Below are positions 2,766 through 58,936 of a DNA stretch of 64,000 nt, piece by piece. Source of the stretch: Olleya sediminilitoris (GTDB lineage Bacteria > Bacteroidota > Bacteroidia > Flavobacteriales > Flavobacteriaceae); contig NZ_JAEMEF010000001.1 in NCBI RefSeq assembly GCF_016785945.1, forward strand, positions 248,001-312,000. The letters are read 5' to 3'. Below the pieces are notes generated by a model. The model saw only the letters and a program-made list of their open reading frames with translations. It was not told the origin of the DNA and made no database searches. The number at the start of each line of letters is the position of its first letter. The first letter of the stretch is position 1. Made by a program: the position numbers and the translations under genes.

Positions 2766-2878
2766 TCCAGTATTAGCAAACCTGCTAAGCACATTTCCAA
2801 AATAGTAAAACACAAACTGAATTGTATTTAGCATGCCAATAACGCATGCTTATATCCATCTCAGAAAATAATATTACA

Positions 2879-3574
2879 ATGAAAACTAAAATAATACAAA
2901 TCACCTCTGGTCGTGGACCAGCTGAGTGTTGTTGGGTTGTAGCGCAAGTATTAAAACACTTTATAGCTGACTTAAAACACAATAACATTAATTATAAAAT
3001 AATACAAAGAGAAAAAGGTACTGAAAACTTGACGCTTCAATCCGTCACAATTCAATTACAGGCAGAATCCCTAGATCGGTTTTTAAGCCAATGGATTGGA
3101 ACAATACAATGGGTTGGCGTGTCAGCTTTTAGACCACAACACAAACGTAAAAACTGGTTTATAGCAATGTACTTAATAAATCAGGATCAAGAGTTTAAAA
3201 TTAATGACAATGACATTATTTATCAAGCCACAAAAAGCTCTGGACCTGGAGGACAACATGTAAACAAAGTAAGCTCTGCAATAAGAGCCATTCATATACC
3301 AACTAAAACACAAGTGTTAGTTATGGATAGTCGCTCTCAGCATCAAAACAAAAAAATTGCAAAAATACGCTTACATGAAAAAATAAATCAAATGCAGTTA
3401 GACCAATTAAAATCTAATACTAAAAACCAATGGGAAAACCACTTAAATATAGAAAGAGGAAACCCAATACAAATTTTTAAAGGCTCTGATTTTAAAAAAA
3501 ATACAATTTTAAAAACATTTAAAAAACAACGCAATACCTTAAAAAAAGAATTGCGAAACGAATTAAACAACTAA
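2879..3574 (+). CDS. prfH: Peptide chain release factor H
   Basis: A class I release-factor relative of 231 residues, shorter than RF1/RF2 because it lacks their codon-recognition domain. The N-terminus TSGRGPAECCWVVAQ, the middle FRPQHKRKNWF and the catalytic SSGPGGQHVNKVSSAIRA (GGQ at residues 124-126) are hallmarks of PrfH. The tail is lysine-rich and ribosome-binding in style. I chose the ATG at 2879 because homologues begin just before the TSGRGP motif; an in-frame ATG at 2846 adds 11 unmatched residues. PrfH is known to pair with RtcB and to release peptide from ribosomes damaged in the decoding centre so that RtcB can reseal the RNA. The rtcB gene lies 3 kb downstream here. The TPR gene follows after 5 bp. 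Confidence 0.92.
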   Translation: MKTKIIQITSGRGPAECCWVVAQVLKHFIADLKHNNINYKIIQREKGTENLTLQSVTIQLQAESLDRFLSQWIGTIQWVGVSAFRPQHKRKNWFIAMYLINQDQEFKINDNDIIYQATKSSGPGGQHVNKVSSAIRAIHIPTKTQVLVMDSRSQHQNKKIAKIRLHEKINQMQLDQLKSNTKNQWENHLNIERGNPIQIFKGSDFKKNTILKTFKKQRNTLKKELRNELNN

Positions 3575-3579
3575 AAATA

Positions 3580-4131
3580 ATGGACACTAATTTGTTAAAT
3601 AATTACGTGCTTAAAGCCATAGACGCTTATCCATATGAGCTAGAAGAAACCGTAGAGAATCTAAATTATGCCTTGTCATACCAAAGTAATAACGCTTATG
3701 CGTTGTACTTAATGGCACGTTTGCAAGCAGAACAATTTGGTGACTACACAATGGCTAAGCAATATTATGCTGAAGCTTTAGCTTGTAAAATGGACTTTCA
3801 GAAAGTCTATCCAAGATACATACAAGTCCTTTTGGATAATGAAGATTTTAATGAAGCCCAGAAACTAATAGATTTTGCTTTAACAGTTAAAGGTATTGAC
3901 AAAGGAAGTATTTGGTGCAAACAAGGTCAGCTTTATGAAATAAAGTTAAAGCATAAAAAAGCTATTAAAGCACTTAAAACAGCAAAACAATTTGGATTTA
4001 ATAACGATTTTATTAGCTATATAGACACAGAGATATCAAGAAATAAAAGCAAGATAAAATCTAATAAGAAGCCCTCAAAAAGCAAAACAAAGAAAAAAAA
4101 GTGCTGTAATAAGAAGAAAAAACAAAAGTAA
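3580..4131 (+). CDS. TPR-like protein with lysine-rich C-terminal tail
   Basis: A 183-residue protein with helical repeats of TPR type, for example residues 40-75 (NAYALYLMARLQAEQFGDYT) and a second pair near 80-145. There is no signal peptide or membrane segment. From about residue 153 the tail is almost pure Lys/Ser/Asn with a Cys pair (KKKKCCNKKKKQK), which suggests RNA or ribosome contact. It starts 5 bp after prfH, so the two are co-transcribed. Function is not established; a scaffold for PrfH or RNA substrates is an inference. The stop is followed within 7 bp by the second operator palindrome. Confidence 0.8.
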   Translation: MDTNLLNNYVLKAIDAYPYELEETVENLNYALSYQSNNAYALYLMARLQAEQFGDYTMAKQYYAEALACKMDFQKVYPRYIQVLLDNEDFNEAQKLIDFALTVKGIDKGSIWCKQGQLYEIKLKHKKAIKALKTAKQFGFNNDFISYIDTEISRNKSKIKSNKKPSKSKTKKKKCCNKKKKQK

Positions 4132-4250: not shown

Positions 4251-4280
4251 TTAATAAAAGTTCTTTAAAATATTAAAACT

Positions 4281-4363
4281 GGAAGTATTGAGCAATTGGT
4301 TGGCTCGCCTGACTGTAAATCAGGTCTTTTATTAGCATGTAGGTTCGAGTCCTACTACTTCCA
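4281..4363 (+). tRNA. tRNA-Tyr (GTA anticodon)
   Basis: A complete cloverleaf. The 7-bp acceptor GGAAGTA/TACTTCC ends with discriminator A at 4363. The D-stem is GAGC/GCTC, the anticodon stem CCTGA/TCAGG with loop CTGTAAA (GTA at 4315-4317), and the T-arm GTAGG, TTCGAGT, CCTAC. The 14-nt variable region (4325-4338) fits the type II size of bacterial tRNA-Tyr but forms no obvious stem. No CCA is encoded. The gene stands alone inside the RNA-repair island and not in the usual tRNA-tuf operon, so it may be an extra copy serving the repair system. Confidence 0.85.
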
Positions 4364-4365
4364 CA

Positions 4366-4450
4366 TCAAGTAAGTCTTGTTACGTGTTTCGATATAGCAC
4401 TATTGTATAAATCCTTGCGGTTTCGCATCAGGTATTTATATCCAACTTGA
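4366..4450 (+). ncRNA. Structured element with long hairpin, possible degenerate tRNA-like unit
   Basis: TCAAGT (4366-4371) can pair with ACTTGA (4445-4450) to close an 80-nt unit. Inside it a strong hairpin runs 4406-4440: TATAAAT with ATTTATA, CCT with AGG, and TGCG with CGCA around a GTTT loop. The size and the closing stem resemble a tRNA-sized module, but I see no D- or T-arm consensus. Function unknown. Confidence 0.4.
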
Positions 4451-4491
4451 CTTGAAGGCTTTAAGGTTATTTGGCCAAATAAATAATCTCC

Positions 4492-4558
4492 TCTATGTAC
4501 ACAGGTTCGAATCCTGTCTTCCGTAACAGGAAGTAGCTAAGTCTGGTTAAGCAATAGA
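4492..4558 (+). ncRNA. Circularly permuted tRNA mimic (element A)
   Basis: The parts of a tRNA occur in rotated order. An anticodon-stem-like closing stem TCTAT (4492-4496) pairs with ATAGA (4554-4558). A 4-nt variable loop follows, then the T-arm ACAGG/CCTGT with loop TTCGAAT (4501-4517). Next is an acceptor-like hairpin CTTCC/GGAAG closed by GTAACA (4518-4533), TA at positions equivalent to 8-9, and a D-arm GCT/AGC with a GG-containing loop (4536-4552). All junction lengths match a tRNA cut in the anticodon loop and closed at the acceptor end. The same order is known from bacterial YrlA Y RNAs, but no Ro60 gene is in the window. Confidence 0.6.
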
Positions 4559-4565
4559 CAATTTT

Positions 4566-4665
4566 GTAGGTTCGAGTCCTACCAAAACCAAATGGTTTTG
4601 TGGCGAAACGGTAAACGCACTGTATTTAGGTTACAGCAATTAGGATGGACTAAAAATCCATAATT
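4566..4665 (+). ncRNA. Circularly permuted tRNA-Leu-like RNA (element B)
   Basis: A T-arm GTAGG/CCTAC with loop TTCGAGT (4566-4582) leads directly into CAAAACC (4583-4589). After AAAT comes its exact complement GGTTTTG (4594-4600). Then follow TG, a D-arm GCG/CGC (4603-4618) and an intact anticodon arm CTGTA/TACAG with loop TTTAGGT (4620-4636), which gives anticodon TAG. The stretch from TGGCGAAA to TTTAGGTT is strikingly like the 5' part of bacterial tRNA-Leu(UAG). A hairpin (4638-4665) follows where the variable arm would be. No T-arm lies downstream, so the 3' part of the molecule is encoded before its 5' part. Confidence 0.6.
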
Positions 4666-5055
4666 CAACAAAGAAGGTCACTTAAAAAAATAGACCACCA
4701 TTGTGTGTCTCACATAAAACGATAAAAAACAAAGTAAAGGACGACTAGCTTAAACACTTGTTGTTAAAGCAGTCTAGAAAACACCTTGAAATACAATTGT
4801 ATTTTAAGACAATTTAGGTTTCCTTTTAAAGATTAACTTTTCATTAAATAGTTTGAAAATTTTTCAACTAAAAATGATAAATCATCTGCAAAACGCTACT
4901 TAAATCACTTTTAATCGCTTGTATTTCCGTAGTTAGAAAGATGGTTATCTTTTGCTTTGTTTTACCAAGAATAGTCATTTCAGCTAGACTGAAATTCTAT
5001 TATAAATGTTTAATCATTCTGTAAAAATAAAACGCAGAATAAAAAATTAGAAATC
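4666..5055 (+). other. Non-coding remainder of the array, hairpin-rich leader of the slipin gene
   Basis: No plausible gene. Visible structures are a hairpin at 4692-4710 (AGAC, CAC with GTG, GTCT), a bulged stem at 4743-4774 (GACT with AGTC, GCTT with AAGC), a 16-bp AT palindrome at about 4788-4803, and ATTTCAG/CTGAAAT at 4977-4995. None has a convincing T-run, so the array RNA may continue into the slipin gene at 5056. No additional T-arm consensus was seen here. Confidence 0.45.
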
Positions 5056-6156
5056 ATGAAGAGAGTAAGAATTCATGCAGGCAACGTAGGTTTGGTATTT
5101 AAAAATGGTGATTACAAACGTGTCATTACACAAGGTGCACATTGGTTAATGTTTAACGAAAGCGTAATAACATATAGCTTAACATCTGCTTTTAATGCAC
5201 CAAAAGCATTGGATATCTTACTTAAAGATGATGCTTTGGCAAACAAGTTACATGTTATAGATATTGAAGACAATCAAATAGTATTGGTATATAGCAATAA
5301 TAATTTTAAACATGTATTAACAGCTGGTCGTCATGCGTATTGGAAAGGAGTAATTGACTACAAATTTATTACGGTAGATTTTAACAATATTACCATTCCA
5401 AATACAATTGACAAAGCATTATACACCAATAATGCATTGCGACAATACATCAGAAGCTTTGAAGTTGCAGCACACGAAAAAGCTGTTATGATTGTAGATG
5501 ATACGTTTGATAAAATTTTAGACCATGGTACATACCATTTCTGGAGAAACAATCAAACCATTAAAATTGCTAAAGCAGATTTACGTCAATTACAATTAGA
5601 AATTGCTGGTCAAGAGTTGTTAACCAAAGACAAAGCAACTGTACGTATTAATTTTTACGCACAATACAAAGTTACAGATATTGAAACTGCGTTAATGCGT
5701 AACAAAGATTACGAAAAACAATTGTACACTAATTTACAATTAGCATTAAGATCTTTTGTTGGCACTTATACTTTAGACGAGTTGTTAGACCAAAAAGACA
5801 ATATTGCAAAAGCAGTATTAGAAGACGTAAAAACACAAGCTACCAAATTAGGTGTTAATGTGTTACACACAGGTATTAGAGATGTAATTTTACCAGGTGA
5901 CATGAAAGATATTATGAACCAAGTATTAATAGCTCAGAAAAAAGCACAAGCTAATGTCGTAACAAGACGTGAAGAAACAGCTTCAACCAGAAGCTTATTA
6001 AATACTGCAAAATTAATGGAAGACAACACCATGTTGTTTAAGTTAAAAGAAATGGAATATGTAGAAAAAATTGCTGATAAAATTGGCGAAATTACAGTCG
6101 CTGGAAACGGTAATGTAATTGAGCAATTAAAAGATATTTTTTCTGTGAATAAGTAA
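5056..6156 (+). CDS. Slipin-like SPFH/band-7 family protein
   Basis: 366 residues. The region at about 120-310 reads as an SPFH domain (FEVAAHEKAVMIVDD, AQYKVTDIETALMRNKDYE, GVNVLHTGIRDVILPGDMKD), followed by a helical stretch (QVLIAQKKAQANVVTRREET) typical of slipins. An N-terminal 110-residue segment has a repeat-like pattern (KRVITQGAHW, KHVLTAGRHAYW). There is no hydrophobic N-terminal membrane segment, unlike stomatin. SPFH proteins form oligomeric scaffolds. Slipin genes are recurrent partners of rtcB in bacterial RNA-repair operons, and here rtcB is the second gene downstream. Its exact role in repair is unknown. It starts 13 nt after the A-rich AAAAAATTAG context shared with the 24-codon ORF at 2624. 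Confidence 0.85.
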   Translation: MKRVRIHAGNVGLVFKNGDYKRVITQGAHWLMFNESVITYSLTSAFNAPKALDILLKDDALANKLHVIDIEDNQIVLVYSNNNFKHVLTAGRHAYWKGVIDYKFITVDFNNITIPNTIDKALYTNNALRQYIRSFEVAAHEKAVMIVDDTFDKILDHGTYHFWRNNQTIKIAKADLRQLQLEIAGQELLTKDKATVRINFYAQYKVTDIETALMRNKDYEKQLYTNLQLALRSFVGTYTLDELLDQKDNIAKAVLEDVKTQATKLGVNVLHTGIRDVILPGDMKDIMNQVLIAQKKAQANVVTRREETASTRSLLNTAKLMEDNTMLFKLKEMEYVEKIADKIGEITVAGNGNVIEQLKDIFSVNK

Positions 6157-6162
6157 GGTTAT

Positions 6163-6256
6163 GGCGTAACCCAAACCAAAAAGGGTTTGGGTCGCGCTTT
6201 CCGCTAAATCTTTTGCAAAAAAAGCAAAAGGATACCGCATCAATCGCTTACGCAAC
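6163..6256. repeat. Dispersed intergenic repeat family 1, copy 1
   Basis: Starts GGCGTAACC, contains the conserved block GGTCGCGCTTTCCGCTAAATC, then AAAAGGATACCGCATC and ends in ATCGCTTACGCAAC. Two internal hairpins are visible: ACCCAAACC with GGTTTGGGT, and CTTTTGC with GCAAAAG. The same ordered blocks occur at 42211-42340 and, reversed, at 58853-58936. It lies between the slipin and the small gene at 6288. Confidence 0.7.
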
Positions 6257-6287
6257 AATCAGCTAAAATATTATACCACCCAAAAAC

Positions 6288-7998
<1,711 letters not shown>

Positions 7999-58111: not shown

Positions 58112-58861
58112 TTGGATCTACCTTTAAATCTTAAAATTTTTGATATTGCTATAAACATCCATCTAGTTTTAGAATATCTAGCCTTTTTTATAGCCTTTAG
58201 ATATTATGTGTTTTTAAGAAAAAGTCACACAGATATTATTACTAGTAACAATAGATTATCTATAATTTTAGGTGCTGCTTTAGGCGCTTTAATTGGATCA
58301 CGATTGGTTGGTTTTTTAGAAAACCCAACAATATCCTTAAGTGTTAATAACCTTTTTACATTATTAAATACTAAAACCATAATGGGTGGATTATTTGGTG
58401 GTTTACTTGGTGTGGAATTAGCAAAAAAAATTATTGGCGAAAAACACTCGTCTGGAGATTTATTTGTGTTTCCTATTATATTAGGCATCTTTATTGGTCG
58501 TATTGGTTGTTTTTTATCTGGTATTAACGAGTTTACTTATGGTAAAGTAACTACTTCTGCTTTTGGAATGGATTTAGGTGACGGTTTGATGCGTCATCCT
58601 ACGTCTTTACATGAGCTTGTTTTTTTAATCTTTTTATTTGTTGCTTTAAAAGCTGTAAACCATAATTTCCGATTGAAAAATGGTGATTTATTCAAGCTTT
58701 TTATGCTTAGTTATTTTGGTTTTAGATTTTGTATCGAATTTATAAAACCTAATGTGTTTTATACTTTTGGCTTAAGTAGTATCCAAATATTATGTGTAAT
58801 TTGTTGGTTGTATTACAGCAAGTTTATTGTTAGTCTATTAATTGGCAAACACCTGCGTTAG
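58112..58861 (+). CDS. Lgt-like integral membrane protein
   Basis: 249 residues from a TTG start; no closer ATG fits. About seven membrane helices. Motifs resemble prolipoprotein diacylglyceryl transferase: TIMGGLFGGLLG (about 89-100), GRIGCFLSG (129-137) and RHPTSLHE (161-168, compare RHPSQLYE). The Asn of the Lgt signature GRIGNF is replaced by Cys. The neighbour 80 bp downstream is a radical SAM protein resembling tetraether lipid synthase, so this may be a lipid-modifying relative and not a true Lgt. Its stop codon lies in a dispersed repeat. Confidence 0.75.
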   Translation: MDLPLNLKIFDIAINIHLVLEYLAFFIAFRYYVFLRKSHTDIITSNNRLSIILGAALGALIGSRLVGFLENPTISLSVNNLFTLLNTKTIMGGLFGGLLGVELAKKIIGEKHSSGDLFVFPIILGIFIGRIGCFLSGINEFTYGKVTTSAFGMDLGDGLMRHPTSLHELVFLIFLFVALKAVNHNFRLKNGDLFKLFMLSYFGFRFCIEFIKPNVFYTFGLSSIQILCVICWLYYSKFIVSLLIGKHLR

Positions 58862-58936
58862 CGATAGAAACGGTATCCTTTTTTGAGGTACGATAAAAAA
58901 GATTTAGTGGATAGCGCGACCCTTGTGGTAACGCCC
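58853..58936. repeat. Dispersed intergenic repeat family 1, copy 3 (reversed)
   Basis: On the minus strand it reads GGGCGTTACCACAAGGGTCG, then CGCTATCCACTAAATC, AAAAAAGGATACCG and ATCGCTAACGCAG, the same blocks as at 42211 and 6163. It overlaps the last codons of the Lgt-like gene. Confidence 0.75.

Follow-up and report, generated by a model that had tools for sequence, protein, structure and literature searches.

A circularly permuted tRNA-like element occupies positions 4492 to 4558 of the positive strand in the 64,000-nucleotide stretch of the Olleya sediminilitoris genome analysed here (contig NZ_JAEMEF010000001.1, positions 248,001 to 312,000; hereafter the window). The element, termed module A, is one of the tRNA-shaped modules of a conserved, apparently unannotated RNA that is large (approximately 580 nt) and lies directly upstream of a gene encoding a slipin, a Band_7 (SPFH) protein (5056 to 6156, positive strand) recognised by protein homology and locus comparison as the constant neighbour of the RNA. 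The reading favoured here, held at a probability of about 0.45, is that this RNA is a Y-RNA-like tRNA mimic working with the slipin in an RNA-repair or translation-stress locus. The observed basis for this reading consists of the conserved sequence and structure of the RNA, its constant position 5′ of the slipin gene, and the absence of a Ro60 match in the genomes searched.

Module A has the form of a tRNA body that is open within the anticodon loop and has its acceptor stem sealed by a loop, so that the strand enters and leaves through the position of the anticodon stem. Parsing of the sequence places the closing stem (TCTAT at 4492–4496 with ATAGA at 4554–4558) where the anticodon stem stands in a tRNA. 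From the 3′ side of this stem the strand runs through a 4-nt variable stretch (4497–4500), a T-arm (4501–4517), a 5-bp acceptor hairpin closed by a 6-nt loop (4518–4522 with 4529–4533), the TA of tRNA positions 8 and 9 (4534–4535) and a D-arm with three of four pairs (4536–4552), and then through a single base to the 5′ side of the anticodon stem. The sequence-only reading that drew attention to the element had located each of these parts correctly to the base. Module A lacks an anticodon loop, which the following module B possesses with the triplet TAG. ARAGORN makes no tRNA call for module A and Rfam at cut-off calls just the neighbouring tRNA-Tyr in this region; at the element, RF00005 yields partial matches (21.2 and 25.5 bits) that lie under the cut-off of 29.

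For comparison, 80 relative loci were taken as the best 80 of 572 encoding an orthologue of the slipin, giving 81 loci with the window. A fixed-order parser resolves module A in 80 of the 81 loci, the window included, with 76 clean parses. Among the 80 parsed loci the closing stem is fully paired (5/5) in 73, TA stands at positions 8 and 9 in 77, the acceptor loop is no longer than 9 nt in 56, and the acceptor stems comprise 47 distinct pairs.

The alignment of tRNA parts by chance, considered as an explanation, is ruled out by descriptor counts together with a covariance model match. A relaxed descriptor, defined only after the window had been inspected, is met in 25 of 100,000 trials in which the real T-arm is kept and its flanks are randomised by a first-order Markov model. 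A stricter descriptor, failed by the window itself because its D-stem has three of four pairs, has no match in 60 Markov copies of the window; across the 80 related loci (843,181 bases, both strands) it has 64 matches within 1.2 kb upstream of the slipin gene and one elsewhere, at L041:3456 on the positive strand. The decisive test is homology through R2, a covariance model of module A built from 41 relatives with the window excluded, which finds exactly 4492–4558 in the 64-kb window with 70.6 bits (E 1.4e-18), and chance alignment is therefore rejected, in agreement with the small probability that the sequence-only reading had assigned to such an arrangement. The next scores in the window belong to module B (29.7 bits), the tRNA-Tyr together with the beginning of the RNA (19.9 bits) and part of a tRNA-Met (15.5 bits).

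Selection on module A at the RNA level is supported by covariation. An earlier alignment for this purpose held 76 rows, reduced to 62 after removal of near-duplicates, the window being present in both; the loci dropped in forming the 76-row set were two misparsed (L023 and L029), two with no closing stem (L028 and L057) and one with no module (L070). The alignment used here omits the window; from 61 non-redundant relatives it keeps the 41 whose acceptor loop does not exceed 9 nt. In it, 98.7% of cells are paired across the four stems and 15 of 19 pairs show changes on both sides, the kind of compensatory change whose lack had been named in advance as grounds for refuting the element. The covariation score is 0.593 against a shuffled mean of 0.218 and is reached by none of 500 shuffles, and sliding the pairing partner by one to three columns lowers pairing to 36–54%.

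When R2 is applied genome-wide, 245 of 345 genomes contain a match at 1e-4. Seven regions chosen from this list comprise four YrlA-type loci and three regions in which ordinary tRNA genes stand in tandem, with scores of up to 58.5 bits (L192 to L194), the latter because the T-arm of one tRNA and the D-arm of the next imitate the permuted order. R2 alone is therefore not specific, and the genome-wide tally was not used; the window scores 70.6 bits.

The larger RNA is proposed to extend from 4365 to approximately 4945 on the positive strand, based on its start motif and an RNAalifold consensus; the proposed 3′ limit is that of the last conserved block, TTTCCGTA to GAAAGATG (4924–4944), recognised from conservation in the alignment. 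The start motif, directly after the tRNA-Tyr gene, was found in 75 of the 81 loci with a first pattern and in all 81 with a widened one. The region folds into a conserved structure whose helices show compensatory changes (RNAalifold, 67 non-redundant sequences). Its 5′ domain (4365–4490) comprises five helices that are not tRNA-like, with 34 pairs, 97.2% of cells paired and both-sided changes in 18 of 34 pairs in 66 sequences; none of 500 shuffles scores as high on any covariation measure, and the domain was modelled as the covariance model R1. The first T-arm follows at a fixed spacing of 126–137 nt in all loci that the pattern matched (78 of 81).

Module B (4566–4636), identified by the R2 match, the parse and covariation, is a tRNA opened between the variable region and the T-arm, with an anticodon-type loop retained. 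It consists of a T-arm (4566–4582), a 7-bp acceptor hairpin with an AAAT loop (4583–4600), a D-arm (4603–4618) and an anticodon-type hairpin (4620–4636) with the triplet TAG at 4627–4629. A module of this type is parsed in all 81 loci; three T-arms are present in nine loci, with the third module parsed in full in five. In total, 86 second or third modules were kept and six skipped, four of the latter being third T-arms (L046, L065, L076 and L078). Among 72 non-redundant second and third modules, acceptor pairing reaches 91.7% (shuffled mean 52.9%) and pairing of the anticodon stem 90.6% (shuffled mean 70.9%). The stem at the anticodon position is fully paired around a 7-base loop in 73 of the 86, and of these hairpins, which were selected on pairing and not on the bases concerned, 72 have T at position 33 and 72 have a purine at position 37. 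Their triplets are of 19 kinds (TTT 26, CAT 15, TCG 7, TAG 5, and 15 other kinds). The T33, the purine at 37 and the varying triplet support tRNA mimicry, and the covariation of the second and third modules, together with that of the 5′ domain and module A, supports RNA-level selection. A second hairpin with a 7-nt anticodon-like loop, CTAAAAA in the window (4645–4661), follows in 42 of the 73, with the loop CTNNNAA in 32. The core of the RNA is two tRNA mimics in series, with module A grafted on through its anticodon stem.

No family in Rfam 15 covers the ~580-nt RNA at cut-off, and no description of this RNA was recognised in the open literature searched, so that a prior mention is possible. 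The permuted tRNA module is of a known kind; the whole, with its length, several modules, anticodon-type loop, 5′ domain and slipin partner, was not found described. In some relatives a second conserved tRNA-like RNA lies upstream of the permuted one (L066:4066–4269, also L010, L011, L012, L018, L022, L051, L055, L072 and more), with 29 starts among the 80 loci and the 3′ part matched in 20. Its layout runs from a tRNA acceptor and D-arm (CCTCTTTAGCTnAAAnGGAAGAGC) through approximately 150 conserved bases replacing the anticodon arm to a T-arm and acceptor. It has no Rfam match in L066, and its start motif was not seen in the inspected part of the window.

The association of the RNA with the slipin gene is highly consistent, the RNA preceding it in 81 of 81 loci. 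When 395 Bacteroidota genomes are searched with R1 under strict filters, 13 match, the window's own included; all 13 fall among the 19 of 390 genomes encoding the slipin at E ≤ 1e-40, and the slipin gene lies just downstream of the RNA in each. At the family level, 245 of 299 genomes match the slipin at E ≤ 0.001, mostly through other SPFH proteins judging by the low scores, and 27 of the 29 slipin loci at E < 1e-80 contain an R1 match at E ≤ 1e-9. Of the other two loci, L108 contains the module by R2 (61.6 bits). Six slipin loci from other families of the class all have T-arms 315–493 nt upstream of the slipin gene; R1 is significant in one (L151), and R2 scores 34–59 bits in five, although scores of this size are also possible for tandem tRNA genes.

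Sequence comparison indicates that the link between RNA and slipin extends beyond Bacteroidota. In nine of nine Pseudomonadota and Bacillota records of a plasmid collection, a T-arm is located within 1,200 nt upstream of a slipin gene, while the motif occurs elsewhere in these loci twice in 165,394 strand-bases. The records span five genera (four Burkholderia, two Escherichia coli with identical sequence there, and one each of Citrobacter, Photobacterium and Subdoligranulum), with slipin identities of 33–40%. Read by eye, the T-arm in E. coli and Citrobacter is followed by letters able to form a hairpin whose stem differs by species, and the region further upstream resembles a sigma-54 promoter. 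A query spanning the slipin gene and its upstream region matches 1,624 of 5,426 complete E. coli genomes, 1,621 of them over at least 80% of the query, and the one RefSeq record inspected has no RNA feature upstream of the E. coli slipin. A phage origin was considered and rejected, as a search of 50,697 phage records at 1e-20 found no match to the slipin. In E. coli the slipin gene is followed by a gene of the nucleotidyltransferase/DNA polymerase beta superfamily (L168:4700–6922 and L175:4001–6223), beyond which lies a zeta toxin family gene in L175. In Burkholderia, a second T-arm upstream of the slipin gene seems to be part of a tRNA-like unit in normal order (L169:3998–4070, labelled tRNA-??? 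by ARAGORN, and, by eye, L172 to L174).

In the favoured reading, the RNA would be made together with the slipin under translation stress or RNA damage and would bind this SPFH protein, for which assembly into rings or cages is expected, in the way that YrlA binds Ro60 in other systems. The tRNA elbows and anticodon loops would attract enzymes that act on tRNA, such as anticodon nucleases, modifying enzymes and exonucleases, and the RNA might then serve as a decoy or tether while RtcB, a PrfH-like factor and the extra tRNA restore translation. A role for module A itself as a damage decoy or regulator ligand, as the sequence-only reading had proposed, is possible. That reading was incomplete in that the permuted module, though real, is one part of a ~580-nt RNA whose constant neighbour is the slipin more than RtcB.

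Several observations weigh against this reading. Further pair types, one of five covariation measures for module A, are reached by 27 of 500 shuffles, module A is undetectable in L070, and its closing stem is missing from L028 and L057. L109, with a partial slipin match, is matched by neither R1 nor R2, and a T-arm and hairpin alone are seen in L162 (Bacteroidota). Neither the E. coli nor the Citrobacter minimum-energy fold combines the T-arm with the acceptor hairpin, and in Enterobacteriaceae no clear D-arm is seen. RtcB-like sequence is present within the fetched flanks in only 36 of the 80 relative loci. Finally, at every locus where it was observed the RNA lies 5′ of the slipin gene on the same strand, as would be expected of a leader.

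The main alternative is a cis-acting leader, since these data contain no case of the full RNA apart from the slipin gene. In this case the RNA would be the 5′ untranslated region of a slipin-rtcB transcript, and a factor that processes, modifies or cuts tRNA would read the mimics and thereby set slipin expression. The invariant orientation favours this, as does the end of the conserved block 111 nt before the slipin start codon in the window. In other systems tRNA-like operators act in this manner, the T-box and the thrS operator being mentioned in the passages cited (PMC8394870). However, with two to three tRNA-like modules the RNA is very large for a leader, and YrlA, its nearest relative, acts in trans according to the same passages (PMC8394870). 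A leader is possible, though somewhat unlikely.

The nearest known relatives of module A are the YrlA RNAs, and module A is of the YrlA type, because R2, whose training set contained slipin-linked modules only, also recovers YrlA-like RNAs close to Ro60 (TROVE) genes and in a locus of RtcR and RtcB genes. The T-arm, closed acceptor and D-arm of the YrlA layout, to which the sequence-only reading had likened the element, are all present. R2 matches RNAs located 0.4–1.2 kb from TROVE genes in L188, L189 and L190, where Rfam YrlA scores of 35–45 bits are likewise below cut-off. R2 also matches in L191 (3798–4555), where the RtcR and RtcB genes flank a series of five YrlA matches, two of which exceed the Rfam cut-off. 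Both kinds of RNA share the circularly permuted tRNA domain and an RNA-repair context, the YrlA structure being 6CU1 in the passages cited (PMC11472068, PMC8394870). They differ in that YrlA is 90–150 nt with one basal stem, whereas the slipin-linked RNA runs to approximately 580 nt, contains two or three modules including one that has an anticodon-type loop, begins with a 5′ domain that covaries, is linked to a slipin instead of Ro60, and scores below the Rfam cut-off. The passages cited describe YrlA as modified by DusA and TruB and as tethering PNPase to Rsr, and the Salmonella rtc operon, a parallel to the favoured reading, as containing YrlA and being activated by tRNA fragments (PMC8394870). 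As far as the cited text goes, one group suggests that the tRNA-like domain of YrlA may inhibit a nuclease and saw no YrlA fragments (PMC7790460).

This kinship raises the alternative that the RNA is a true Y RNA for which the slipin is a mere neighbour, its partner of the Ro60 type having been lost or overlooked. The Rfam YrlA model (RF02553) does align end to end over 4472–4576 with 28.5 bits (E 7.5e-4), and it finds the same kind of module as R2, however the gathering score is 69. The absence of Ro60/Rsr, asserted from the sequence alone, agrees with the genome searches: no TROVE match was found in the organism's own genome or in any of 42 genomes with the RNA (relatives from the 80 loci, genome completeness not stated), which keep the slipin instead, and the same search finds the positive control, Deinobacterium chartae. 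A Y RNA of the ordinary kind is accordingly unlikely. Conversely, no slipin orthologue is found in four genomes picked for their YrlA-type RNAs, three with distant SPFH matches (best E 1e-15) and one with none. The slipin here and Ro60 there hint at a replacement, in a comparison of few, chosen genomes.

It is highly improbable that the locus is a permuted tRNA gene whose modules are excised and joined by RtcB and mature into working tRNAs. Permuted tRNA genes occur in algae and archaea. The order of tRNA parts is the same as that described for such genes in the passages cited (PMC3978253), RtcB is encoded nearby, and ACCA follows the acceptor in 13 of the 86 second and third modules. Unlike such genes, module A has no anticodon, and the acceptors of 5–8 bp are sealed by loops; the 73 anticodon-position hairpins contain the 19 kinds of triplet given above, and ordinary tRNA genes are found in the genome, among them Leu-TAG and two additional Tyr copies. 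Because module A has no anticodon, the acceptors are loop-closed and ordinary tRNA genes are present, neither maturation into tRNA nor circularisation by RtcB, as proposed in the sequence-only reading, is supported, and no cut or join site was seen, although none was specifically searched for. A decaying remnant of a tandem tRNA array, brought to mind by the real tRNA arrays just upstream in many relatives and by the tandem genes that imitate the order of T-arm, acceptor, acceptor and D-arm (L192 to L194), is refuted as the present state by the covariation of the 5′ domain and of all four module A stems, with the fixed first T-arm spacing and the constant partner gene also against it, so that it deserves next to no credence; such arrays may nevertheless be the evolutionary source of these RNAs.

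The neighbouring genes provide the RNA-repair context on which the favoured reading draws. An RtcB RNA ligase, identified by domain search, is encoded in the same locus as the RNA (6595–7998, positive strand), which places the RNA in an RNA-repair (rtc) locus. RtcB-like sequence also occurs just after the slipin gene in three of five non-Bacteroidota loci examined, and in Citrobacter an RtcR gene is the divergent neighbour beside the slipin. A domain search identifies an RF-1 domain protein, PrfH-like (2846–3574, positive strand), with similar sequence in 15 of the 80 relative loci. It is followed by a TPR-like protein (3580–4131, positive strand) with a weak Pfam match below cut-off and similar sequence in 59 of the 80 loci. 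An ordinary tRNA-Tyr(gta), an extra copy called by ARAGORN and Rfam (4281–4364, positive strand), adjoins the RNA on its 5′ side and is preceded by GTTCTTTAAAA (4260–4270, positive strand), a candidate motif presumably resembling boxA. Arrays of up to eight ordinary tRNA genes (ARAGORN) stand directly before the RNA in L028, L041, L052, L062 and others, at most 1.4 kb upstream of the slipin gene, as if the locus carried spare tRNAs. Downstream of the slipin gene, a DUF6331 protein found by domain search (6288–6611, positive strand) has similar sequence in five of 80 relative loci. Two Flavo-1 RNAs (Rfam RF01705) are located at 6186–6268 on the negative strand, between the slipin and DUF6331 genes, and at 58852–58925 on the positive strand.

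A divergently oriented gene at 654–2375 (negative strand) encodes a protein with WYL, WCX and PhyH domains by domain search, with similar sequence in 15 of 80 relative loci, and may be the regulator of the locus. A protein with a similar N-terminus, encoded divergently to the RNA, is readable by eye in L154, L162 and L165. The identification of the WYL gene as TrcR was considered and dropped, as TrcR is a ribbon-helix-helix protein in the cited passages on Anabaena (PMC10272220). According to these passages, that regulon otherwise parallels this locus, in that a single repressor exerts stress-linked control over extra tRNA genes (the trn operon), a slipin gene and rtcB, and the terms tRNA-like and Y RNA are absent from the main text of that paper (PMC10272220). 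In Pseudomonas aeruginosa, an SPFH gene is described within the rtc locus in the passage cited (PMC13086221).

Comparison with two other ribonucleoprotein systems yields one exclusion and one lead. Transfer-messenger RNA (tmRNA) shares with this RNA the embedding of a tRNA-like part in a long transcript; a kinship with it was rejected, as an ordinary tmRNA (140.9 bits) is encoded on a different contig of the genome, and the tmRNA model (RF00023) has no match on the window's contig at E ≤ 0.001. The predicted model of the slipin (mean predicted local distance difference test score 77, predicted template modelling (TM) score 0.55, C-terminal part poor) contains three similar beta blocks (2–41, 65–108 and 132–175), an SPFH domain and a long helix, features shared with the major vault protein. 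In Foldseek searches with this model, however, stomatins rank first and vault protein chains after them (best E 4.8e-10), with low TM-scores of 0.33–0.47 by query length and root-mean-square deviations of 21–32 Å, and the MVP_shoulder profile matches one of 28 slipins (E 0.0016). The resemblance predicted from the model is thus a lead and not a result. It would allow a vault-like ribonucleoprotein, a doubtful extension of the favoured reading, in which a cage or ring of slipin, with its three vault-like repeats, SPFH domain and long helix, might hold the tRNA-mimic RNA in the place of Ro60 and YrlA at RtcB loci from Bacteroidota to part of E. coli, the permuted tRNA bodies and anticodon loops acting as bait for tRNA-cutting enzymes.

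What tRNA mimicry does for bacterial Y RNAs is not settled, and slipins in RNA-repair loci are given no clear role in the passages cited. The tie between a tRNA-mimic RNA and a slipin, in genomes with no Ro60 match, offers such RNAs a second, independent protein partner and suggests what the slipins in RtcB loci do. As 1,624 E. coli genomes match the slipin and its upstream region, the question is testable in an ordinary laboratory species.
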